From Methanosarcina horonobensis HB-1 = JCM 15518 (GTDB taxonomy: Archaea; Halobacteriota; Methanosarcinia; Methanosarcinales; Methanosarcinaceae), in assembly GCF_000970285.1 (NCBI RefSeq), contig NZ_CP009516.1, positions 3,451,036-3,515,035 on the forward strand: a DNA stretch of 64,000 nucleotides. The letters run 5' to 3'. Position numbers and translations under genes: made by a program. The notes under the pieces are model-generated. The model was not told the origin of the DNA and searched no databases. It saw nothing but the letters and a program-made list of their open reading frames with translations. The first letter of the stretch is position 1, and each line of letters opens with the position of its first letter. Shown here one piece after another: positions 36,850-50,088 of the stretch.

Positions 36850-37617
36850 TTAAAAGAATTCCATGTACGCTTTTTCAATTTCTTCTCGATAAATAGGGTT
36901 TATACTATACGTTGTACTGTTTCCCATCTTATTTTCCGTGATAAGATCTAATTCCTTTAATTGTTTCATATGCCAGGTAACCGTACTTTTAGAAATTCCT
37001 GTTGATAGAGCAAGATCCCTGTTGGTGTTGCACTCCTCGTCTAAAATGTTACATATAATTTTGCGGGCTATCTCGTTTTGAAGAGCTGAAATAACAAGTT
37101 TTTCTTTTTCATCGAATGTGGAACTATTCTGAAAATATCTGACTCTTCCGTGATCATTATGAGATTCAACCAGATTTTCAGCCTCAAGGACAGCGAGATG
37201 ATAACGAAGAGTCCCCCTGTTCAGTCCCATATTGTTTGCAATCTCACTGACACAGGTTCCGGGATTTTCTTTAATAAAAACATATATGTTCTTCCTCTTC
37301 AGAACCCCGACAGTATTTGAATAGTCGACCATCCGGAATCCGAGTATTGCAAAAATAAGTTTTGCAGGGTACAGTAATATATACAGTAATATATCTATTA
37401 CCGATAAGATTTGCATCGCTGCCAGCCAGAGCAGAAAATGCCAGTATGGTTCTACTGTGTCCTCAAGTATTATCACCTCTTCTCCGTTAATTGAAGCTCC
37501 AAATTCGTCACCAGGGGCTGGACTTATTATATACTCCGTAGCTCTAGCTGTGGATATTAAGAGAAAAAAAAGTAAACAGGCGGTAAGCTTTTTTTCAAGC
37601 TTAGTGCTGGTAAACAT
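36850..37617 (-). CDS. Membrane-anchored double winged-helix regulator (locus A)
   Basis: The 255-residue protein has an N-terminal signal/anchor (TACLLFFLLISTARA), a short outside segment starting TEYIISPAPGDEFGASINGE, a transmembrane region (HFLLWLAAMQILSVIDILLY plus LIFAILGF), and two cytoplasmic winged-helix domains: FIKENPGTCVSEIANNMGLN...TLRYHLAVLE and NRDLALSTGISKSTVTWHMKQLKEL. It is a one-component regulator that could carry a signal from outside straight to DNA. The ATG at 37617 lies inside the last codons of a relic gene, the same overlap as in the intact locus B (48624-49860). Several in-frame residues before 37617 belong to that overlap. Target genes are unknown. Confidence 0.75.
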   Translation of the reverse strand: MFTSTKLEKKLTACLLFFLLISTARATEYIISPAPGDEFGASINGEEVIILEDTVEPYWHFLLWLAAMQILSVIDILLYILLYPAKLIFAILGFRMVDYSNTVGVLKRKNIYVFIKENPGTCVSEIANNMGLNRGTLRYHLAVLEAENLVESHNDHGRVRYFQNSSTFDEKEKLVISALQNEIARKIICNILDEECNTNRDLALSTGISKSTVTWHMKQLKELDLITENKMGNSTTYSINPIYREEIEKAYMEFF

Positions 37618-37815
37618 TAAATGTATATTCTTCGGTCCCACTAACCGACTCTCCATAGGCTTTGAACTTCCAGCTTCCCTGTTCGACATATCCCTGAGAA
37701 GGGTTTATATTGAGACAGATCCTGTCCATTGATACTTTCCATCTATTCGTACTGTCACCCATGAGGGGTAAGAAATCCGAGCATATAAAGTTTCTCTCCA
37801 AGGTATCGAACAACC
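37601..37815 (-). pseudogene. Relic of the secreted partner gene (locus A)
   Basis: The last 35 codons read LNINPSQGYVEQGSWKFKAY followed by GESVSGTEEYTFNV, nearly the same as the C-terminus of the intact secreted protein at 49348-49860. Upstream, homology continues for about 100 bases with indels, and the signal peptide and the N-terminal two-thirds are missing. Only the overlap with the regulator gene is kept. Confidence 0.75.
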
Positions 37816-38211: not shown

Positions 38212-38871
38212 TCAAATGCTCCCTGAAGTAAACAGGAATAAGTATACCTGATAAACAATAGACAGACCGACAGGAATACTAACCGCAAGAGTTGCATTTT
38301 TAATCGATATATTTCGTGCATGTAAAAGTGCGAACACCCAGATGTATGCAGACAGTAAGAGACATAGAATTCCAATTGTTTGCGAGGTATAGTACAGGGG
38401 GTTATTTGAAAATGTCTCCATCATATTTTCGGTAATAAGTTGCGGGTCCTGCAACGAAAAATCTGCAGAGGTTGTTAACCAGTACGTTATAACGACACCT
38501 ATTAGACTGCTAAATATTTGCGGCACAAATCCATAACCTACAAACTCTAACGTTCTCTTGAAAGAACCTTTTGAATCAAATACATAAGATATTGCATATA
38601 AGATTCCACTCAGCAGGAACCAATAAAAAAATGTTCCAAATAACCCTCCGACAATAATGAAGAAAATTGTTGCAATTGAGAAATATGAACTCATATCAGA
38701 AGGAAACAATCCTCTGAATTGATTCATAGCCAGAAAACTTGAAACCATTGCAATTACAGCAATTACAAGTGTTATCAATACAGGATACTTAAAATTGACA
38801 TCGTTTCTCGACTTTTCCCTGAAAAATGAATTAGGATCAAATAACAGATTATTTAGGTTTAGATTATTCAT
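38212..38871 (-). CDS. Yip1-type membrane protein
   Basis: A 219-residue polytopic protein with five hydrophobic segments. The arrangement NLLFDPNSFFREKSRND followed by VLITLVIAVIAMVSSFLAMN, and GSFKRTLEFVGYGFVPQIFSS, is characteristic of prokaryotic Yip1-domain (PF04893) proteins, whose role is unknown; eukaryotic relatives act in membrane trafficking. The ATG at 38871 has GGTGTG upstream; a GTG three codons earlier is possible. It runs with the CcdA-like and following gene on the minus strand, 113 bases downstream of them. Confidence 0.75.
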   Translation of the reverse strand: MNNLNLNNLLFDPNSFFREKSRNDVNFKYPVLITLVIAVIAMVSSFLAMNQFRGLFPSDMSSYFSIATIFFIIVGGLFGTFFYWFLLSGILYAISYVFDSKGSFKRTLEFVGYGFVPQIFSSLIGVVITYWLTTSADFSLQDPQLITENMMETFSNNPLYYTSQTIGILCLLLSAYIWVFALLHARNISIKNATLAVSIPVGLSIVYQVYLFLFTSGSI

Positions 38872-38984
38872 ATTTTTCACACCATTGTAAGTCTTATGTA
38901 ATAATTGCCATATTATTTATAAAGATTTCATATGTTAATCAGTTATTTAGATTTAACTTCATATTTTTGTTTATATCTTACAGC

Positions 38985-39305
38985 TTAAATCATAATCCAT
39001 AATCCAAAAAATATAAACACAAATCCACTGATTTTTTTCAGATACATTTTATATGAACGAATCTGTTTGGACAGAGTATAGCCCCCTATCATGCCAACTC
39101 CAATAAAAGGTGTCAATACCCCTCCGCTGAAAGCAAGCAATAGAGCCAGATCATTAACAGTCCCGTTTGTAATAGTCTTGTTGAGCAGTACAAGAAGCAT
39201 GGGAGCAGTGCAGGGAACTTTTACAAAAGAAAACAATATCCCAGAAATCCATAAGGGTATCTTTTCATTTAATAAACATGTATATACAGATAATAGAAAA
39301 CTCAA
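38985..39305 (-). CDS. Half-length CcdA/DsbD-like membrane protein
   Basis: This 106-residue protein has three transmembrane stretches. FSFVKVPCTAPMLLVLL resembles the second conserved Cys-Pro motif of the CcdA/DsbD electron-transfer family (for example GKTPCVGP), and GGVLTPFIGVGMIGGY and a C-terminal ISGFVFIFFGLW match the later helices. The first half, with the other redox cysteine, is missing from this frame. It overlaps the next gene upstream by four bases, so both are translated as a pair; the upstream protein may supply the missing part. It may also be a truncated remnant. Confidence 0.5.
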   Translation of the reverse strand: MSFLLSVYTCLLNEKIPLWISGILFSFVKVPCTAPMLLVLLNKTITNGTVNDLALLLAFSGGVLTPFIGVGMIGGYTLSKQIRSYKMYLKKISGFVFIFFGLWIMI

Positions 39306-39952
39306 TTATCCGAATTCTGTTTGCGATGTGACCATTTTATTCCTAATACCAGAAATATCAGCAGTATTCCAAGAATTACGCTTCCTTTTAAAATGGGAAG
39401 AATAGGGCAGCCAAGTACAAGGTAACGTATAAAAATAAAAACACATGCAATTACGTAGAAAATCAGCAATCTCACAGGATCTTTTTGATTTGCTTTCCTT
39501 TCGCCATATATGATCTTTGAGAGTGAGACTCCGATAAATAATAAAAGCAAAATCCAGTATATCTGATCCATATTATAAACTAAAGAAGCATAAAGATAGG
39601 CGATATACAGAAGTATTGTAATAATTAGAAGACCCATATGTTCTCGAATTGACGAAGAAATATTAGTTTTTTCATCTTTATAGAGCTCTGTGACTTTTTT
39701 GTCGTGAGACTTTGAGCTCAAAATATGGGTAATTATAAAGGAAATATTATTGTTCTCAATTTGTTCCTTTTTTCTATACCATACCATAAACGAGAAATGG
39801 ATAGCTGTAAAAAAGAGGGCCAGAATAAATACCCCTGACATCCCTAGCGGGATATATCCTTCCCTATTTAGTAGTCCGATTATTAAAAAACTAAAAAAGC
39901 ATACTGAAAGTGAACGCAATAACTCCTCTTTTACAATATAGTCAATTTTCAT
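39302..39952 (-). CDS. Polytopic membrane protein of unknown function
   Basis: The 216-residue protein has six or seven predicted transmembrane helices, for example LSVCFFSFLIIGLLN, LLIITILLYIAYLYASL and VLGCPILPILKGSVILGILL. Between helices 2 and 3 is a charged loop of about 40 residues. I cannot assign a family. A single Cys-Pro (GCPILP) near the C-terminus is of interest because it lies next to a CcdA-like gene. The ATG at 39952 has AGGGTG six bases upstream. The stop overlaps the CcdA-like gene start. Confidence 0.55.
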   Translation of the reverse strand: MKIDYIVKEELLRSLSVCFFSFLIIGLLNREGYIPLGMSGVFILALFFTAIHFSFMVWYRKKEQIENNNISFIITHILSSKSHDKKVTELYKDEKTNISSSIREHMGLLIITILLYIAYLYASLVYNMDQIYWILLLLFIGVSLSKIIYGERKANQKDPVRLLIFYVIACVFIFIRYLVLGCPILPILKGSVILGILLIFLVLGIKWSHRKQNSDN

Positions 39953-40052
39953 GGCTCGCACCCTGCACTTTGGAAATTTTGAGCTTAAATCTATTTGCTT
40001 CTAAACCTGTATTTATTGAATAATACTGTGTTCTAACTGATCTCTTCCAGGC

Positions 40053-41048
40053 TTATGCTCCTTCAATAATTTTAAGGAATAGTTTCTTCAGATTCATTTC
40101 TTCTTCTTCGAACATGGATACAGTGCCGCCTGCTTTCCTAACAGCTTTTGCAATCTCTGTACGGAGCTTCGTCTTCGCATGCACATGCAGAGTTTCGTCC
40201 TGAATTTCAAGAGCAGTCACGCCCTCTACGGTTTTCACGGCTTCTGCGGCCTCGGAGAGTGGAATATCCTGAACCTCAAGCAAATAATTCACACCCTCCT
40301 TTGCTCTGATTATATCTCGCAGATCCTCCACAGACCCGACTGCCAGCAGCTTCCCTCTTGCAATTATTGCTATGCGGTCGCAGATCTCCTCAACTTCTTC
40401 CATGGAATGCGAACTCAGAAAAACGGTAACTCCTTTACTCCGGTTCAGGTCCTTTATAAGATCACGCATCATCTGAGCTCCCACGGGATCGATGCCGCTT
40501 GTTGGCTCGTCAAGGAAAAGAACTGAAGGTTCATTAATAAGAGCCTGTGCAAGCCCGAAACGCTTGCGCATGCCTGTAGAAAAACCGCCTGTTTTCTGAT
40601 CGATTGCACGGGTAAGGCCCACGGTCTCAAGCAAATTTACAATCCTCTGTTCCCGTACTTCGGGTTCGATATCATAGAGTTTTGCATAAAAGCGCAGGTT
40701 CTGCCTTGCAGTGAGATTATCATAAAAACCGGCAGGCTCTGGAAGGACGCCTGTTGTTTCCCTTATATTTATTACTTCGCGGACAATATCATAACCTGCA
40801 ACTTTCCCGCTTCCTTCACTTGGTTCAAGCAAACCGATAAGCATTTTCATGGTTGTGGTCTTGCCGGCCCCGTTAGGACCTACAAAGCCGAATACTTCTC
40901 CCTTTCTTACCTGCAGGTTCAGATTGTCTACCGCGTGTATTTTATTCTCCTTCCCGAAAACCTTACTCAAACGAATGGTTTCTATTGCGAATTCATCTAC
41001 TTTCGGTACGACTTCATTTTGTTCTAATTCCATACTCATTGATTCCAT
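40053..41048 (-). CDS. ABC transporter ATP-binding protein
   Basis: The 331-residue ATPase of a DrrA/CcmA-type exporter has Walker A GPNGAGKT, signature FSTGMRKR (usual core LSGGQ), Walker B VLFLDEPTSGIDP and switch His in LSSHSMEEVEEI. A C-terminal domain of about 90 residues follows (VQDIPLSEAAEAVKTVEGVT). The start at the ATG 41048 overlaps the upstream NEW3 gene's stop region, with GGTGA just before. No membrane permease lies next to it on this strand. The twin ABC-2 permeases at 45240-46991 on the other strand may be the partner. Confidence 0.88.
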   Translation of the reverse strand: MESMSMELEQNEVVPKVDEFAIETIRLSKVFGKENKIHAVDNLNLQVRKGEVFGFVGPNGAGKTTTMKMLIGLLEPSEGSGKVAGYDIVREVINIRETTGVLPEPAGFYDNLTARQNLRFYAKLYDIEPEVREQRIVNLLETVGLTRAIDQKTGGFSTGMRKRFGLAQALINEPSVLFLDEPTSGIDPVGAQMMRDLIKDLNRSKGVTVFLSSHSMEEVEEICDRIAIIARGKLLAVGSVEDLRDIIRAKEGVNYLLEVQDIPLSEAAEAVKTVEGVTALEIQDETLHVHAKTKLRTEIAKAVRKAGGTVSMFEEEEMNLKKLFLKIIEGA

Positions 41049-41050
41049 GT

Positions 41051-42619
41051 TCACCGCCTTCCGAACTTACGTACTACAAAAACAAGCACAAGGACCGCAA
41101 AGCCCAGCATTGCTATGCCAAGAAGCCCGCTGCTTGATGATTTTTCCACATTCACCTTGATACTTTTCTCAGAGCTCACCAGATCATCACTCTTTGCCCG
41201 TATGAAAATCTCTTTGACACCGGAACCGGCATTGGCGTTTGCAGTGATCTCTACTGGGATGCTTCTGGATTTTCCTGATCCCAGCTCATCTATCGTTCCG
41301 AAACCCTGGATCTGTACGTTGATGCCACTTACCTCGTTAATTTCAAGGGTGACATCTTCAAGGTCCTCGTCTCCTCTGTTTTCAATACTGACCCGGATTT
41401 CAGAAGAACCTCCCGGATTCAGTGTCAATTCGCTGGGGTTTGGATCGACTTTAAGCAGTTCCTCATTTTCGATATCATGGTTAATGCCTACCTCAAGCTG
41501 CCTGGTAACTTTTTTATCCCCGCTAACAGCTGCAATTACGACCGGATAAAGCCCACCTGTAGCATTTTGAGAGGGCTTGACCTTTACTGTAAACTCCTGT
41601 TCCTCTCCCGCAGGAAGCATCAGGGAAGCAAGCCTTCCTTCCTTGTCTTCCTCAGTAAGAAATTCAGCTTTCCAGCCTTCAGGCAAGCTTAAGGCTTCAA
41701 GTTTCAGCTTAAGCGGCTGATCATACCGGTTTTTTAAAGAAACTGCAAATTCTGCAGTTTTTTCAGGTCTAATTTCAACTCCCACTATGTTAGAATTCAG
41801 CTCTACGTACGCACTTAAATCTTCATCCCTGGAAAGTTCAGGGTTTATGCTAACGCTGATCGGCAAAAACACACTCTGGTTTCCTTTTTCCGGGCATGCT
41901 GCTATCAAAATTTCATAATCTCCCTTTGTTGCATTGAGCGGAGGATTCACGAGAATTTTAAACTCCTGGCTTCCATCTCCAGGAACTCCTAACCTCGTAA
42001 TTCTGGCTCCGTCGGTGGAAAGCAGGTCAACTCCCCACTCCTCGGGTTTCGAAACCAGAAAAATCCGAAAGTTTGCTCTACTTTCATATTTATTTTCTAC
42101 AAAAGCCCCGAAACTGACAGGAATTCCGGGATGGGTCTTTTTTCCGGGAATATCCGAATAAATTTCCAGGTTAGGCATTGCAGCCCTGTCAACTGTTACT
42201 GTAAATTCCCTGTATATCAGATCATGATTTCGGATATTTTCTCCATAAGGCTTCAGGCCTATTTTTATAGGGTATTCCTCATCCTTTGCGTTTTCAGGAA
42301 TTCTTACCTTAAGAGTCAATTCCTTTTCACTGGCTTCTTCAGGCAAAGTTATGTGACTGACCTGGTTGCCATCCGCATATACGCCTGCAGTCCAGTTTTC
42401 AGGCATTTTACTTATGAAAAGCATAACCGATATGCTCTCAGAAGTATTGTATCCCTTTTCCACGGTAAAACTGAACTCAACAAGGTCCCCTGGTCTTGCA
42501 ACCTTGCCACTGACATCGTTCCCGACCGTAACCTTAGCGAAGTCTGCTCCAGCCTGGAAAGGCATTAGAATAAATAGCGTGAGCAGCACAAGAAGGAGTT
42601 TTACTTCGTTTTCAGGCAC
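41051..42619 (-). CDS. NEW3-domain surface protein with membrane anchor
   Basis: The 522-residue protein has a signal peptide (LLLVLLTLFILMPFQAGA), four Ig-like beta domains of the NEW3/CARDB kind, and a C-terminal helix (LGIAMLGFAVLVLVFVVRKF) with a basic stop. The repeated motif is V-x-PG-x5-F-x-V-x2-N-x-Y (for example RPGDLVEFSFTVEKGYN, HPGIPVSFGAFVENKYE, RPEKTAEFAVSLKNRYD). This type of protein (COG1470) is often found with ABC-2 exporters in archaea. It starts with GTG at 42619, with AAGGA upstream. It overlaps the ATPase gene, so the two probably form one unit. Confidence 0.82.
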   Translation of the reverse strand: MPENEVKLLLVLLTLFILMPFQAGADFAKVTVGNDVSGKVARPGDLVEFSFTVEKGYNTSESISVMLFISKMPENWTAGVYADGNQVSHITLPEEASEKELTLKVRIPENAKDEEYPIKIGLKPYGENIRNHDLIYREFTVTVDRAAMPNLEIYSDIPGKKTHPGIPVSFGAFVENKYESRANFRIFLVSKPEEWGVDLLSTDGARITRLGVPGDGSQEFKILVNPPLNATKGDYEILIAACPEKGNQSVFLPISVSINPELSRDEDLSAYVELNSNIVGVEIRPEKTAEFAVSLKNRYDQPLKLKLEALSLPEGWKAEFLTEEDKEGRLASLMLPAGEEQEFTVKVKPSQNATGGLYPVVIAAVSGDKKVTRQLEVGINHDIENEELLKVDPNPSELTLNPGGSSEIRVSIENRGDEDLEDVTLEINEVSGINVQIQGFGTIDELGSGKSRSIPVEITANANAGSGVKEIFIRAKSDDLVSSEKSIKVNVEKSSSSGLLGIAMLGFAVLVLVFVVRKFGRR

Positions 42620-43093
42620 CTATATCCTTCCTAAAAGCATCATATAATGATCAGGAAAATTAGTGGAGCTATAAGTGGGACTGCAAGGCTTAGCTACTCT
42701 AAGCCATAGATACTTTAAGTCGTTGACTTTTTTCTCGACTAATAAAAATAACTATTGTTCCCAAAACTCTACTTCATCCTGAAAAATACCTATTCTTTTC
42801 TAAGAATATATTCTTCTTTAAATATTTTGTGTCCAAAGTCTTTAACAATCATGAAAAAAAGCTCAAATATTGATCATATATTTTTTTATAATAATAACAA
42901 GTGCGAATTGTTAGAGACTTTGGACATAAAAGTTATATTTATGAAAAAGAGTAGCAAGTTATGGAGTTCAACCGAGCGCGAAAAAAATGATCGAACTCCA
43001 ACCCCTAAAAGAGGTAAATCTGCATAGTTTTAAGATTACTTAATACTTGCGGATTTTATCTCTCAATAGAAAAGTTTTGAGAGGTTAGATGAA
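42620..43093. other. AT-rich divergent spacer with a hairpin
   Basis: No supported gene. A 7-bp inverted repeat, GGAGTTC at 42963-42969 and GAACTCC at 42993-42999, is separated by 23 bases. It lies about 95 bases upstream of the secreted protein gene that starts at 43094, so it could be an operator or part of the transcript leader. A 58-codon frame from 42851 spans this hairpin but looks unconvincing. Confidence 0.4.
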
Positions 43094-43513
43094 ATGAACA
43101 TAAAAGCTAGTTTAATATTAGCACTCGCAGCATGTATTATGCTTGTGGGTGTTGCAGCAGCAAATCAAGAAAATCCTGAAGCAGGATCAACATGGTTAAC
43201 AGCAGCTCTTTTCCATTTAGGCCCTGGGTACAACTCTGTTAGTGGATCTTTAAGCGTAGGTGACACTGCAGATTATTGGCGTCAAAGTAATGCTGCTAGT
43301 AGTGTATCGGTTATGTTGTACCTAGACCCAACTTCAAAATCAAATGGTGGAATAGCTCAGATGTACGAAGGCAACAGTGCACATTCCTTTATGCAGCGTG
43401 TACAGAAAGGTAATGACGTCTGTTCTGATACTTATCTGAATTATGCCCCAGTATACGTTACTATGACTCCAGCTGGCCTTGGAGACTATACCTTTACTGT
43501 ACGGAGGTATTGA
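43094..43513 (+). CDS. Small secreted protein, PPC-like fold
   Basis: The 139-residue protein has a classic signal peptide (SLILALAACIMLVGVAAA) and a compact beta domain. SGSLSVGDTADYWRQ and the ending GDYTFTVRRY resemble bacterial pre-peptidase C-terminal (PPC) domains and the C-terminus of the secreted protein at 49348-49860 (EDYTFNVAFH). There is no membrane anchor, so it is released or bound to the surface. GAGGTTAG lies before the ATG. It precedes the propeller gene and permeases on the same strand. Confidence 0.65.
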   Translation: MNIKASLILALAACIMLVGVAAANQENPEAGSTWLTAALFHLGPGYNSVSGSLSVGDTADYWRQSNAASSVSVMLYLDPTSKSNGGIAQMYEGNSAHSFMQRVQKGNDVCSDTYLNYAPVYVTMTPAGLGDYTFTVRRY

Positions 43514-43565
43514 GAGTATAGGAAAAATTATAAGATAACTTTCTAAACTTGGACGGGTATTTTAT

Positions 43566-45235
43566 ATGTTAAGAAATATTATGGTAATTATATTTTTTTA
43601 TTATTTGCTACAAACATAGCATCTGCTAATCCGGTATCCGAAGATTCAAATCTCAGCGTTACACCACTTGATGAAATTCTCCAGATAGAAGAAGGATTCA
43701 TAGCAACCTCAACAGAATGGAGTCCTGATGGACAATATTTGCTTGTAACCTGTTACAAATGGGTTCCTCCTTCAAATAGTGTTGTTAAACATTACTTGTT
43801 AGACACGAATTCCCATACTTTCGGGGAAATAAATTATGGAATTAATGGATCGGATACCAATGGAATATTACAAGCAAAATGGATCCCGTCAGGTGACAAG
43901 GTATATTTCGAAGTTTCAAGGATCGACGAAACAAATTCCGGTTATTGTTATATCATTTGCAATCCAGATGGTACAAATTTGAGGTGTATAGGGACTAACT
44001 ATACAGATCTTTCATACATACTAAAGAATCTTGGGGATATTGGTTATCAGAAGAATCTTAACTGGAATCCAGACTCCGGTAAAATCGTATTTGAATGGGA
44101 AAAACCCGGAAATCAATCTACCGGAGTATATGTAGTAGATGGAAGTGGTATAAATGCCCATGAACTTCCTTCAGCTACATATCCACAACCTACCTTCTAC
44201 GACTCTAATAGAATTTTGATTGTCACCGATGAAGGAACTATATCGCTTATTAACAATAGCGGTAATTTGCTTCAGGATTTCCGGCCTGAGAACAAAAATG
44301 AACGATATTGCGCTTTTTCGCTTAGTCCTGACAGAAAAAAAATCATGTTTGCAGCAGGGTCATTAGATAGCTACAATTTACATACATATATCTCTAACAT
44401 TGATGGTTCAAATTTAAAAGGAAATATCTCTTACAATGAAAATCTCTGGGTGAATGAGTCTTGGCAGCCAAACGGTTCTCTTTTGCTGGTAAATCAGAAC
44501 AGGAATCTGTATGTTGTAGAAGGAGACGAAAATAATAAGCGTCTTTTGTATGAAGGCAATGCTAGCGAGCCCCAATGGTTCCCTGATGGAAGGAAAATAC
44601 TGTTTGTTGAAAATGGAAACAAGCTTTATTCGATAGATGTTGACGGAACCAATCTGTCCTTTATCACGAGTTTCGGACCTACTTACTCCTACCTATGGAA
44701 ATATTTTGGCGAAAGGCAGCATTTTTCAATAAATCCGTCTGGGAACACTATAGCTTTTATGTCTGCCTTTGATTCAGCTGCTGGAAGAATGATTGAAAAC
44801 AATGACATTTATAAATTTGATATTGCTGCTCCTTTGTTCATCATTAATTCCAACGGTTCTAATCTTACTCAAGTGACACCTGCAGTAAAGGGAAGATATG
44901 ATACCTGCATAAACTGGAGTCCTGATGGAAAGCAACTCACTATCGGATCCACTATATACACGGATCCCGGGTGGGACCATGGGAATAGCTCTCTGGTAGA
45001 ATTGGATTCTGAAAACTCTTCGCCAATCTGGAAGAGTTTGCCTGTAAAGGAAATTATCAGGAGCGAAGAATCTGGCACCGTTGATAAAGTCCAGATCAAT
45101 GAACCGGATTCCAAAAATACATCACAGGTTACTGAGAGTCAAGAAATAATCAAACAATCTCCTTCCTTTATGCTTTTACAAATGTTTACCTGCATAATGG
45201 GAATCTGGCTGCTGCATAAAAGCAAGGAGTTATGA
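43566..45235 (+). pseudogene. TolB-like propeller protein, signal peptide frameshifted
   Basis: The main frame (no start codon before TTG 43739) encodes a TolB/PD40 six-to-seven-blade propeller with repeats such as WNPDSGKIVFEW, LSPDRKKIMFAAG, FPDGRKILFVENG, INPSGNTIAFMS and WSPDGKQLTIGS, then a C-terminal helix LLQMFTCIMGIWLLHK with a basic end. A signal peptide is encoded in a different frame from the ATG at 43566 (LRNIMVIIFFYY); the paralogous relic at 47127 reads through this region in one frame. The difference lies in a run of seven T at 43593-43599: eight or five T would restore the frame. Otherwise the gene appears intact, so the defect could be recent, a phase-variable tract or a sequencing error. 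Confidence 0.7.
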
Positions 45236-45239
45236 TATC

Positions 45240-46094
45240 GTGAATAAAAACTGCGTTTTAACGCTGGCACAAAAAGAATTTTCGGACAAACTGCATGAAC
45301 CAGGTTTTTTCGTACTCCTTGCGATATTTATGGGTACCCTATTAATATATCTGCAAAGCCGCACAAGTGATTTTTGGGATGTTGTCCAGGTGATTGGCGT
45401 CTTCTTCCCATTGACAGGTATAGCTCTTGGATATGACGGGATAATTAAAGAAAAGAATAGCAAAAGCCTGAATGTTTTATTGACACATCCGGTTTTCAGA
45501 GATAATATCATAACAGGCAAATTTCTAGGAATTTCAATAACTCTTGCACTTATGGTATTTTCATCCCTGACAATAATTGAAGCATCGGATTTCCTGATTT
45601 CTGGGAAAGTTGCTGAACTTGATTCCCTCGTACGTCTGCTAATTTTCGGGATATTTACTTTCCTTTATTTACTAACTTTTGCAGCTTTTGGGCTTTTTGC
45701 TTCAGTCTGGTGTAAAACAGAAATTGAGTCCCTCACGTTCGGAGCTCTGGTCTGGATCAACATGTGCTTTGCCCTCGGCCCAACTATTATTATGCTTGCA
45801 TCTTTCGCATCGGGTCAAACACTGTTTGATATGACGAAAGAGTTTGCTTCGACAGTTTCCTCATTTTACAATATCTCGCCTTTGCATCACTTTGCTGAGG
45901 TGACAGTTGGAGATCTGGATTTGAGTTATTATGGAGGGTTTCATATCCAGACAGATTTATACGGGTTTCTGGACACTCGCTATTCACTATCTTACCTGAT
46001 TGGGTATTACTGGCAAAACGTAGTAATTTTGTTAATTCTCCCGTTTCTGTTTCTGGCAGCTTCATATATTTCATTTTTGAGAGATGATGTCTAA
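45240..46094 (+). CDS. ABC-2 type permease, first of a pair
   Basis: This 284-residue integral membrane protein has six transmembrane segments in the ABC-2 (PF01061/PF12679-like) permease layout: TLAQKEFSDKLHEPGFFVLL with the first helix, a cytosolic loop with GYDGIIKEKNSKSLNVLL and THPVFRDNIITGK, then LLTFAAFGLFASVWCKTEIE and a last helix near the C-terminus. It starts with GTG at 45240, four bases after the propeller gene stop. The loop motif is nearly the same in the next gene. The ATPase partner is not adjacent on this strand. Confidence 0.85.
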   Translation: MNKNCVLTLAQKEFSDKLHEPGFFVLLAIFMGTLLIYLQSRTSDFWDVVQVIGVFFPLTGIALGYDGIIKEKNSKSLNVLLTHPVFRDNIITGKFLGISITLALMVFSSLTIIEASDFLISGKVAELDSLVRLLIFGIFTFLYLLTFAAFGLFASVWCKTEIESLTFGALVWINMCFALGPTIIMLASFASGQTLFDMTKEFASTVSSFYNISPLHHFAEVTVGDLDLSYYGGFHIQTDLYGFLDTRYSLSYLIGYYWQNVVILLILPFLFLAASYISFLRDDV

Positions 46095-46106
46095 GGAGGG
46101 AACAAT

Positions 46107-46991
46107 GTGGAAAATATCTCTAACATAAAAGTCATAGCCCAAAAGGAGTTTACTGACCATCTGAAAAGTCCTGTATTTCTTTCTTTTACAGCTACTTTTA
46201 CGCTTGTTGTCCTTGCCTATTCATATGTGCTGGGGACAGAAGTCGAATATACATTAAATGTTCTTGGCAGCCCTGATTTGATGAGAGGGTTTGAAGGAGT
46301 AGCAGAGGTTGTCGGCCGTTTTGCACCAATTATAGGTATAGTGTTGGGTTTTGATGCAATTGTCAAAGAAATAAAATCCAGTTCCATGAATGTTTTATTG
46401 ACACATCCTGTGTTCAGGGACAATATAATCCTTGGCAAGATTCTGGGATCGAGTTCATGTATTTTGCTCGTACTCTTCTTTTCCATCAATCTTGCAACCG
46501 GAGTCATGCTTATCGCTTCAGGAATTCCGGTCACAATGCAGCAAATCACAAGAATTGAGATATTTATATTTCTAACTTTTTTCTATGCTCTAATTTTCCT
46601 TGCAATCTCCATAATGATCTCAACAATATCAAAAAGATCAAATAATTCTCTTCTGTTCAACTTAATTTTCTGGCTTGTCATAACAGTACTATTTACCAAT
46701 CTAATCTTTACCGTAAGTTATGCATTTTCAGAAGATCTCCATACGGCAAATGACCAGACTCAGCTTCTTAAGAACTTCTTACCTGACTATCATTTTACTA
46801 CTACTGCGGTGGGAATCAAGAATACTGATACAGGACTTACTTCCGAGATAGGAGGGATATTTGATACCCACTATACACTGGGAGCCTGGGCAGGTGAATT
46901 CTGGCCCGATATGGCCTATCTTTTTGTGCTGCCATTCATCTTGCTTATAGGCTCGGTACTAGCGTTTTTGAAAAAAGACATAACATACTGA
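46107..46991 (+). CDS. ABC-2 type permease, second of a pair
   Basis: The 294-residue protein is a paralogue of the previous gene: six transmembrane segments, starting VIAQKEFTDHLKSPVFLSFT, with the cytosolic loop GFDAIVKEIKSSSMNVLL and THPVFRDNIILGK. Eleven or more consecutive residues of this loop (NVLLTHPVFRDNII) are identical in both, so the pair arose by duplication. A heterodimer with one ATPase pair would form a full exporter. GTG at 46107 is the start, with AAGGAGGG upstream; the ATG two bases earlier is out of frame and stops soon. Confidence 0.85.
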   Translation: MENISNIKVIAQKEFTDHLKSPVFLSFTATFTLVVLAYSYVLGTEVEYTLNVLGSPDLMRGFEGVAEVVGRFAPIIGIVLGFDAIVKEIKSSSMNVLLTHPVFRDNIILGKILGSSSCILLVLFFSINLATGVMLIASGIPVTMQQITRIEIFIFLTFFYALIFLAISIMISTISKRSNNSLLFNLIFWLVITVLFTNLIFTVSYAFSEDLHTANDQTQLLKNFLPDYHFTTTAVGIKNTDTGLTSEIGGIFDTHYTLGAWAGEFWPDMAYLFVLPFILLIGSVLAFLKKDITY

Positions 46992-47404: not shown

Positions 47405-48281
47405 GAGCCTGTTTCAAAATTATATATAATTTAACCTTATATTAATAGGGGAATATTATACACTTTGAAGAACTTAGTGATGCTCAATGGAAGTATATTC
47501 GCTTTCACCTTCCTCCCCAACCGAAGGTTGGGAGGAAGAGAGTAAATGATCGTCAGATCATTAACGGTATTCTTTATGTTCTTGTTACAGGTTGTCAATG
47601 GCGAGATATGCCCAAACAATACGGATCTTACGTAACTGCTTGGAGACGACTAAAAAGATGGTCTGAAGAAGGTGTTTGGGATATGATCTTTGATTCTCTT
47701 AAAGATGATCCTTATCGGAATGGACAACTCTCCCTTGGAATTGTTGCAATAGATAGCAGTTTTGTAGAAGCAAAAAAAGGGGAGAAAGTGTCGAGTATAA
47801 TGGATTCAAAAAGAGAAAAGGAATAAAAATTCATGCAGCTGTAACCTCAGAAGGTTTTCCATTAAGCATTGTTATTGGTTCAGGAGCAGAATACGACCCT
47901 TATAAGTTTGAAGAGACTATTGGAGCAATAAAGGTAAGGACCGGGCATAGACCAATAACAAGACCAGAAGAAATAGTAGCGGATTCAATTTATGATGATG
48001 CGCAGGTACGAGAGTACCTGCGCAGAAGAAGAATCAAAACTTCTATTCCTGAAAACAAAAGAAACAGAAAGAAAAGAAAAAGAGGAAGACCTAGAAGATT
48101 TAGTAAACAATCGTATGCGAAAAGATCAGCAGTAGAAAGATTTTTCTCAAGGATAAAAACGGGATTCAGAAGAATTATCATAAGATATGAAAGATTGGAT
48201 AAAATATTCAGGGCATTAGTGATAATAGCAACATTCTTCATTTACTGGGAAAAGCTACAGGAGAAATTATGAAACGAGCTC
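47405..48281 (+). mobile_element. IS5-family insertion sequence, about 877 bp
   Basis: Imperfect terminal inverted repeats are visible: left GAGCCTGTTTCAAAATTAT, right (reverse complement) GAGCTCGTTTCATAATTTC. AAT occurs directly on both outer sides and looks like a 3-bp target duplication. The element is inserted into the C-terminal region of a dead copy of the propeller gene, whose reading continues on the right. One transposase, in two overlapping frames, fills it. Confidence 0.82.
47458..48272 (+). CDS. IS5-family transposase, two frames (possible -1 frameshift)
   Basis: Frame one encodes HFEELSDAQWKYIRFHLPPQ through CQWRDMPKQYG to AIDSSFVEAKKGEK and stops at 47826. Frame two, one base back, encodes EYNGFKKRKGIKIHAAVT, ADSIYDDAQVREYL, and SAVERFFSRIKTGFRR, and stops at 48272. 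The DDE residues are Asp in AIDSS, Asp in ADSIYDD and Glu in AVERFF. The overlap contains A-AAA-AAA at 47772-47778, a classical -1 slippery site used by many IS, so the enzyme may be made by programmed frameshifting. No ATG stands at the start; ATA at 47458 or ATT at 47455 precede the first recognisable residues, so initiation may be damaged. Confidence 0.78.
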
Positions 48282-48623: not shown

Positions 48624-49364
48624 TTACTCATGTTTTTCTATCAAATTATTATAAGAAGGATTTATCTCATAAATAATGTTTTTTCCTTTTTTTGTTTCCT
48701 TTACGAGCCCTATCTCTTTAAGTCTTCTCATGTGCCAGCTAATCGTAGCTCTTGAAACTCCAATTTCACATGCAAGAGCTACATTTGTATTACACGTGTC
48801 ATTTCGTATTTCTGAGATTATTCTTTGATTCATTATGTTTTGAAGGGCAGAAATGATTCTTTTTTCTTCGTTATCACAAGCCAGATCACTTCCGAAATAT
48901 CTTGTTTTTCCGCCCTCTTTATAAGCTTCGATTTTGTTTTGAGCTTTGAGAGTTTTTATATGATATTTGACTGCTCCTCTATTTAAAGTTACATTATTTA
49001 CAATCTCACTAATATACGCCCCAGGTCTGGCTTTAATATAGGCATAGACTTTAGATTGACTGGAGTTATCAGGTACATCTGCTCGACCTGTAATCCGGAA
49101 CCCGAGTATTGCGAAAATAAGCTTTGCAGGGTTCAGCAGTATATCTATTATCGATAAGACGTGCATCAGGGCCAGCCACAGGAGGAACTGCCAGTAGACT
49201 GTAAAGTCCCTGGCTACTGTTACTTCTTCTCCCGCCCTGGATACTCCAAATTCATCACCAGGCGCTGGGCTTACAATATATTCCGTAGCCTCAGCTGTCA
49301 ACACAAAAAATAAAGAGAAAAAGAAAAGGAGCCAGAGTTTCCTGTGATTAATGGAATGCGACAT
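48624..49364 (-). CDS. Membrane-anchored double winged-helix regulator (locus B)
   Basis: This 246-residue protein is a paralogue of the regulator at 36850-37617. It has a signal/anchor (LWLLFFFSLFFVLTAEA), an outside segment that starts TEYIVSPAPGDEFGVSRAGE, a transmembrane part (YWQFLLWLALMHVLSIIDIL and LIFAILGF), and two cytoplasmic winged-helix domains: YIKARPGAYISEIVNNVTLN...AVKYHIKTLK and NVALACEIGVSRATISWHMRRLKE. The ATG at 49364 lies within the last codons of the secreted partner gene (17-base overlap), so they are translated together. EYIVSP is also found in the secreted partner. Signals sensed outside could be read directly by the DNA-binding end. Confidence 0.78.
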   Translation of the reverse strand: MSHSINHRKLWLLFFFSLFFVLTAEATEYIVSPAPGDEFGVSRAGEEVTVARDFTVYWQFLLWLALMHVLSIIDILLNPAKLIFAILGFRITGRADVPDNSSQSKVYAYIKARPGAYISEIVNNVTLNRGAVKYHIKTLKAQNKIEAYKEGGKTRYFGSDLACDNEEKRIISALQNIMNQRIISEIRNDTCNTNVALACEIGVSRATISWHMRRLKEIGLVKETKKGKNIIYEINPSYNNLIEKHE

Positions 49365-49860
49365 TAAAGGTGTAATCTTCGGTTCCACTGACCGATTCCC
49401 CGTAGACCTTAAACTGCCAGGTTCCCTGTTCCACATATCCCTGAGAGGGATCTATATTAAGGCGTATCCTGCCATTTACGCTTCCATCATAATTATCACG
49501 GTAGGGTCCCAACTTACTTCCCGAGGGTGTAGAGATGCTAAGAGTCAGGGAATCGCTGCTATCTCCCCAGTTCAAGTCCACTTCAAGATAATTTATTCCT
49601 GAACCTACGCCCACATAGTGTGTTATAGTCTGCCCCTGAGTTATGTACTGGGTTGACCGTAGAGGAGAAATAGAATCCTCTGTATCAGAAGAATTTTCTA
49701 CCCAGGGACTAACAATGTACTCTATTCCAGCAGAAGCCGGAGAATCTTCCGTGCCAGAATTTTCCGCGTGTTCCTCTTCGGCTGAAACCGCAGGCACAGC
49801 CATCAATCCTATTATTACACATAATACAAATATCATCAAGGATTTCAAATAATCACCCAA
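49348..49860 (-). CDS. Secreted PPC-like partner of the winged-helix regulator
   Basis: The 170-residue protein has a signal peptide (LMIFVLCVIIGLMAVPAVSA), an acidic linker with IEYIVSPWVENSSDTED, and a beta domain similar to PPC domains: TQGQTITHYVGVGSGINYLE, SDSLTLSISTPSGSKLG and the C-terminal EQGTWQFKVYGESVSGTEDY. It has no anchor. It shares the hexapeptide EYIVSP with the regulator encoded by the overlapping downstream gene. The simplest view is that it is the external partner or ligand-binding protein of that regulator. A broken copy sits at 37601-37815. Confidence 0.7.
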   Translation of the reverse strand: MGDYLKSLMIFVLCVIIGLMAVPAVSAEEEHAENSGTEDSPASAGIEYIVSPWVENSSDTEDSISPLRSTQYITQGQTITHYVGVGSGINYLEVDLNWGDSSDSLTLSISTPSGSKLGPYRDNYDGSVNGRIRLNIDPSQGYVEQGTWQFKVYGESVSGTEDYTFNVAFH

Positions 49861-50088
49861 AAAAGAACTTAGAAGTCTGAATATATATAACTTCTGTGTA
49901 AATTATCAAATAATCATCATATCTGCCTTTATAAAAGAATGTTACTAAATTAAAAAAATAGTCTAAAAAAAGACATCATAAGATCTTTTATCTGGCATAT
50001 TTCGTCAAAAAAAGAAATAGAACGAGGATGAAAAAGCACCCTCTACATCAGAATGAAACCATAAATTTTATAAACCATTTGATAAATT

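Follow-up and report, generated by a model that had tools for sequence, protein, structure and literature searches.

Why should a secreted protein and a membrane-anchored regulator from the neighbouring gene carry the same short peptide? The question is raised by an overlapping gene pair in Methanosarcina horonobensis HB-1, whose genome is a single contig of 5.02 Mb. In the window (the whole stretch of 64,000 nucleotides analysed here), a gene for a secreted protein is followed by a gene for a regulator, both on the minus strand, with a 17-bp overlap at 49348-49364. Kinase-free sensing in Archaea is largely an open field, and the membrane one-component regulators found there have few known inputs. 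For this kind of regulator, the genomes indicate which protein provides the input and which residue determines the choice of partner. The taxa concerned include the model methanogens Methanosarcina, Methanococcoides and Methanolobus, as well as Methanoperedens.

Gene starts and predicted architecture of the pair

Both genes are found on the minus strand where an earlier note on this DNA had placed them. That note had the locus right, but the coordinates it gave span longer open frames and not the likely starts, 49364 and 49848. The regulator gene (48624-49364, 246 aa) most likely begins at the ATG at 49364. The frame of the secreted partner is open to 49860; judging from the sequence, its start is most likely the TTG at 49848 rather than 49860, because this codon lines up with the ATG of relatives, and the gene then covers 49348-49848 and encodes 166 aa. 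EYIVSP was reported for both proteins by the earlier note, and both copies are indeed present, at 49705-49722 in the secreted protein and at 49266-49283 in the regulator. Across the 5.02-Mb genome, a degenerate DNA pattern for this peptide matches at those two sites only; its reversed control gives no match. By eye, a transposase-like remnant adjoins the pair at 47608-48260 of the window.

The secreted protein is made up of a signal peptide, a tail holding EYIVSP (residues 47-52 of P0002) and a single PPC/GOLD-type beta-sandwich domain, the core of which lies at 49354-49671 (minus strand, residues 64-169 of P0002). PPC (PF04151) weakly matches 27 of 53 secreted relatives at E ≤0.1, with a best value of 6.9e-8, but not the window's own protein, for which Pfam returns only PKD_3 at 0.014. 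Searched against PDB by sequence, the family has a best hit of 0.18, with Tk-SP at 1.8. An AlphaFold model built on 53 sequences (mean pLDDT 84.2) aligns with the beta-jelly roll of Tk-SP at Z 12.4 and an rmsd of 1.8 Å over 100-104 residues, and with 5sv5, the PPC domain of a B. anthracis collagenase, at Z 9.4. It also aligns with the GOLD domains of TMED and ACBD3 and with collagenase domains, and in a second fold comparison the matches listed are PPC/GOLD-like throughout. The modelled core thus adopts a PPC or jelly-roll fold. Known beta-sandwiches of the PPC, GOLD and collagen-binding kinds (PF04151; Tk-SP, 3afg and 9ues; the GOLD domain of ACBD3; TMED p24) share this fold, but they are protease, collagenase or trafficking domains, whereas here we have a stand-alone secreted domain with a motif in its tail. 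Weak PPC-type matches also occur within giant open frames (predicted proteins of about 900-2000 residues), for example at G006:C1:2915742-2916065 and G008:C22:47968-48291.

In the same model, residues 48-52 of the secreted motif are assigned to a beta-strand, with a moderate pLDDT of about 71. This assignment predicts pairing of the tail with another strand of the secreted protein. The motif of the regulator (residues 28-33), unlike that of its partner, is predicted to be disordered.

The regulator model begins with a helix at residues 7-24 (49293-49346), the first membrane helix or signal anchor. This is followed by an unstructured loop at residues 25-53 that holds the motif, a second helix at residues 54-90 (49095-49205) serving as membrane segment and linker, and two winged helices at residues 100-158 (48891-49067) and 165-245 (48630-48872), all on the minus strand. 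The first winged helix corresponds to PF24266 (HTH_HVO_0163_N, the HVO_0163-type N-terminal HTH), with 2.1e-12 and 47.3 bits for a cut-off of 31, and the second is HTH_24/ArsR-like, HTH_24 being likewise over the Pfam cut-off at 3e-12; PDB profile matches and the model also support the two domains. No histidine kinase or receiver domain was matched by Pfam in either protein. The outside loop, of about 31 residues, is predicted to be negatively charged. Over 53 regulator relatives the net charge is +1.8 before the first membrane helix, -4.7 in the loop and +2.4 after the second, which fits a predicted topology with an external loop and cytoplasmic winged helices. The layout proposed in the earlier note (an outside segment, a membrane part and two winged helices) therefore agrees with the model, the Pfam matches and the charges.

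Distribution of the pair and its relatives in the source genome

Among 111 genomes of the family, the secreted gene is present in 60 and the regulator in at least 62. The regulator lies directly downstream on the same strand for at least 93 of the 113 secreted matches (122 minus nine short fragment rows), and in most cases the two genes overlap slightly or are separated by a short gap. Some of the remaining 20 matches sit at contig ends or belong to giant surface proteins as domains; for a few, a later search does find a regulator. Seen from the other side, a partner frame or a fragment of one lies upstream of 125 of 152 distinct regulator frames. These adjacency tables, like the motif tables below, depend partly on hand listing. 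Genomes in which the regulator is never beside a secreted gene had been named in the earlier note as the case that would count against a functional pair; checked across genomes, the adjacency holds in the family and beyond.

By profile scan, 85 of the order's 185 genomes have the secreted family in stand-alone form, a count that includes some weak matches inside giant open frames. It is hardly present in the class outside the order, where a class-wide scan added one weak match. A further genome scan gave 67 loci. Pairs read from the sequence occur in Methanosarcina, Methanolobus, Methanococcoides, Methanohalobium and Methanoperedens, and also in Methanocella, Methanoregula, Methanoculleus and Archaeoglobales, so that they extend over Methanosarcinales, Methanomicrobiales, Methanocella and Archaeoglobales; in the last of these the secreted partners have no tail. 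No further conserved neighbour emerged, any other gene family being common to at most 7 of 21 stretches. Some regulators have no secreted gene nearby and still retain the motif (L128, L072, L107 and L110, for example). In G078 (L079), G099 (L081) and G077 (L083), two to three such regulators are found within 10-16 kb together with several broken partner genes, a sign of frequent local duplication and decay.

The source genome has four regulators of this kind: the two in the window and, in addition, L008 and L009. The second one in the window (36850-37617, minus strand, 255 aa) carries TEYIISP, as the earlier note had read. We rejected the idea that this locus has no secreted gene: a decayed copy, overlooked in that note, lies directly upstream of the regulator at 37604-37726 (minus strand), with only the C-terminal part left and the earlier part frameshifted. 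Between the two regulators, at 38212-38880 and 39302-46991 of the window, are a Yip1-domain protein and a NEW3-domain surface protein; inspection by eye adds a secreted protein of WD40-like type and parts of an ABC transporter. The L008 regulator is shortened at its N-terminus. L009 belongs to a third, divergent pair, where the regulator is again downstream of the secreted gene and the motifs read GGYTVGP in the regulator and SNYTVTP in the secreted protein. This third secreted gene (C1:517022-517480, L004/L009) has an in-frame TAG within its tail region, which could encode pyrrolysine or simply reflect decay.

A co-varying peptide and a candidate operator

Is the resemblance between the two peptides more than coincidence? 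In 71 automatically cut pairs, the strict motif Y.[VI].P is found in 53 of the regulator outside segments, in 56 of the secreted tails and in both partners of 49 pairs (54 of 125 pairs were left out for a missing landmark, and the tails of L016 and L019 were mis-taken). With shuffled segments the counts averaged 1.3 and 1.0 and never exceeded 5, and only 2 of 174 other signal-peptide-like open frames have the motif, one within a hydrophobic stretch and the other in a peptidase with the same tail. The shuffles and the control proteins together rule out a chance origin.

If the motif is written as Y-x-V-X-P, residue X is identical in the two partners of 46 out of 78 hand-listed pairs, against a permutation mean of 11.2 (none of 20000 permutations reaches 46). 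Independent evolution on the regulator tree yields 12.8 (sd 6.2, maximum 36; 0 of 2000 reach the observed count), and after collapsing clades X is identical in 12 of 18 and in 8 of 12 cases. The 78 pairs comprise only those with readable hexamers in both partners. L100 and L097, which have the tail and a degenerate regulator motif, were left out, and counting them as misses gives 46 of 80. Also left out were L102, L105, L117, L119, L120, L126 and L127, where the motif is degenerate or absent in both partners, L220 (regulator broken) and the tail-less Archaeoglobales pairs. The combination is S/S in the window's clade, E/E in Methanoregula, some Methanoperedens and a clade nested within Methanosarcina, R/R in other Methanoperedens and relatives, and T/T, V/V or K/K elsewhere. 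X was chosen after inspection of the data, six motif positions having been tested; the other positions do not clearly exceed the tree-aware null (127, 79, 241 and 1198 of 2000).

Genomes with more than one pair allow a comparison within a single cell. For the 14 genomes that have two pairs in the list, 16 of 28 cognate combinations agree in X, versus 5 of 28 swapped ones. Shuffles reach the cognate score in 33 of 20000 cases and the X count in 263 of 20000. Each operon thus has its own match. Within the PPC core, columns 134, 135, 137 and 111 track X most, but they stand only modestly above a raised background (median z 1.8). We keep them as a weak lead only, because of this background and because the choice was exploratory.

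On the DNA side, an inverted repeat, CCAAATCATCSAACTG-N8-CAGTTSGAYGATWTGG, lies 5' of many pair operons and is a candidate operator. Allowing at most 5 mismatches in 32 positions, it is found in 35 of 147 operon upstream regions versus 3 of 929 control windows, for instance upstream of L115, L106, L109, L191, L101 and L103 and, in the source genome, at C1:517532 and 517606. Aligned Methanococcoides-type promoters have it just 5' of a TATA-like element. A half-site search of six whole genomes gave 42 sites among the matches listed and none with the reversed control. Some of these sites belong to pairs and some to partnerless regulators of this family, and others are close to clusters that look by eye like secreted-protein, lipoprotein or ABC-transporter genes. 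The repeat offers candidate target genes. In Methanococcoides-type genomes a variant, CAGTTCGATGAAATGG, accompanies lone regulators and clusters in their vicinity. The repeats upstream of many operons lend support to a regulator that binds DNA.

The EYIVSP-type operons, the window's included, showed no clear operator in the upstream alignment or the repeat scan. Their aligned upstream region, at 49880-49916 (minus strand) in the window, holds a TATA-like element, TTATATATA, and a block, TATTTGATAATTT; it is likely the promoter and possibly includes a degenerate operator half-site. The alignment of this subtype also contains a TGATTGTTTGATAATTTACACAGAAACTATATATG-like sequence, perhaps a degenerate version of the repeat.

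A proposed surface-to-DNA switch and its alternatives

How could the peptide connect the two proteins? The reading we favour, and which we regard as moderately probable, is that the operon encodes a kinase-free switch from the cell surface to DNA, with the secreted PPC-fold protein acting as sensor or co-receptor and the two peptides competing in cis and in trans. The secreted protein would be the outside sensor or co-receptor of the adjacent membrane-anchored regulator, and the two partners would carry the same peptide because both fit one site, for which an exposed edge of the secreted beta-sandwich is the most likely candidate. As long as the secreted protein is free, its tail would occupy this edge in cis; the outside loop of the regulator may then displace the tail in trans. 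An encounter of the sensor at the surface would shift this competition and hence switch the regulator. From the membrane, the regulator's pair of winged helices would bind DNA and control at least their own operon. Since differently addressed pairs coexist in one cell, whatever reads the motif should belong to the operon, and since the only other outside domain common to the operons is the PPC core, we propose the site at the edge of this core. From these patterns we infer the physical contact, the motif-reading surface, the cis/trans competition, the signal and the DNA binding. Several observations weigh against this reading: partnerless regulators retain the motif, a peptidase described below bears the tail but no PPC core, the Archaeoglobales partners are tail-less, X alone clearly exceeds the tree-aware null, and the EYIVSP-type operons show no clear operator.

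Parts of this scheme have precedents. Pilus subunits, and GOLD domains that take a partner's strand, show that a beta-sandwich can be completed by an exchangeable peptide strand, as we propose here; they have no homology to our pair, whose complex is a proposal. Membrane one-component regulators with a neighbouring partner outside or in the membrane are familiar from Bacteria, as ToxR/ToxS and TcpP/TcpH in Vibrio and CadC/LysP in E. coli. Those systems resemble our pair in this respect, but they are bacterial, their domains are unrelated to those described here and we know of no motif common to their partners. In Archaea, transmembrane transcription regulators are a published class, enriched in Methanomicrobia (PMC10269533). 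Like the regulator described here, they combine a membrane segment and a DNA-binding domain in a single protein, but our regulator has two winged helices and a short loop in place of a folded outside domain, and the passages of that survey considered here mention no secreted partner with a matching peptide. ArnR and ArnR1 of Sulfolobus acidocaldarius are likewise archaeal, membrane-bound, one-component HTH regulators, according to PMC13286277; they are phosphorylated by kinases and have an N-terminal HTH, whereas here the DNA-binding part is C-terminal and a secreted partner is encoded in the operon. The HTH and secreted families in the passages of PMC4158269 considered here include none that matches the pair. 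The earlier note knew of no described archaeal signalling system with this layout. The class of membrane one-component regulators is in fact in print, but a secreted PPC partner with a common, co-varying motif was not found in the open-access literature, a scope outside which most subscription papers fall; a tail-matched secreted partner of an archaeal membrane regulator thus appears to be previously undescribed.

Could the peptide instead address a third party? It might be a recognition or cutting site for a protease, an anchoring factor or an S-layer factor, the partners not being bound through it. We consider this rather unlikely, although the tail is clearly able to travel. A membrane-anchored M28-type peptidase that starts with the tail of the secreted partner and has no PPC core is encoded in six Methanosarcina genomes, G086, G099, G103, G078, G101 and G079 (L143 13822-15582, plus strand; also L315, L316, L317, L318 and L076). 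This tail, NYTVTP or a close variant, is the one seen in the GYTVGP-type partner, and a pair of that type is found close to the peptidase gene. In G086 and G079 the tailed gene has an operator-like site about 125 bases 5' of it, and a Methanococcoides genome has an M28 gene downstream of such sites. The M28 gene that shares the locus of the pair in Methanoperedens has no tail. The tail is therefore portable, and its role or its history is partly separate from that of the core. Portability fits an address for other surface proteins and also a third-party tag, and the motif retained by lone regulators also favours a tag. A single genome-wide factor, however, would not explain why the operon-matched X differs within a genome, and M28 is absent from the source genome and, being present in 9 of 30 genomes, from the greater part of the genus.

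It is also conceivable that the two peptides zip together directly as beta-strands, and that this brings the secreted protein to the regulator. A motif common to both partners, with co-varying X, is what such pairing would give, but X is often like-charged (R/R, E/E, K/K), which is unfavourable if X faces X, and the tail is already predicted as a strand inside the secreted monomer; we judge this quite improbable. We are still more doubtful that the regulator senses the membrane or surface state by itself, the secreted gene being a mere target kept adjacent for co-regulation: operator-like repeats 5' of the secreted gene and the existence of regulators without a partner would suit such a scheme, which leaves the common, co-varying peptide unexplained. 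Shared ancestry alone, with signal sequence and tail copied between the genes and no contact function, is very improbable, since, even though the M28 fusion shows that the secreted gene's 5' end was copied, X changes jointly at several places in the tree, the motif is degenerate in both partners of seven Methanolobus-type pairs, and codons are identical for 40.4% of identical residues in cognate pairs and 39.8% in non-cognate ones. This codon comparison also rules out recent gene conversion of the motif, and argues for selection on the protein rather than recent copying.

Returning to the cis/trans switch, we tentatively suggest, with clearly less confidence, that it exemplifies a family based on peptide mimicry, where a beta-sandwich would hold its own tail in cis and, on a change at the surface, the identical strand of the regulator in trans. 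An operon-specific 'address' would then recruit M28 and keep paralogous switches in one cell insulated from one another. The motif itself is occasionally doubled: the regulator loop of L221 (2972-3775, plus strand) reads EYIIFP then EYIVTP, and the secreted tail of L217 (2510-3007, plus strand) reads EYIVTP then EYIISP.
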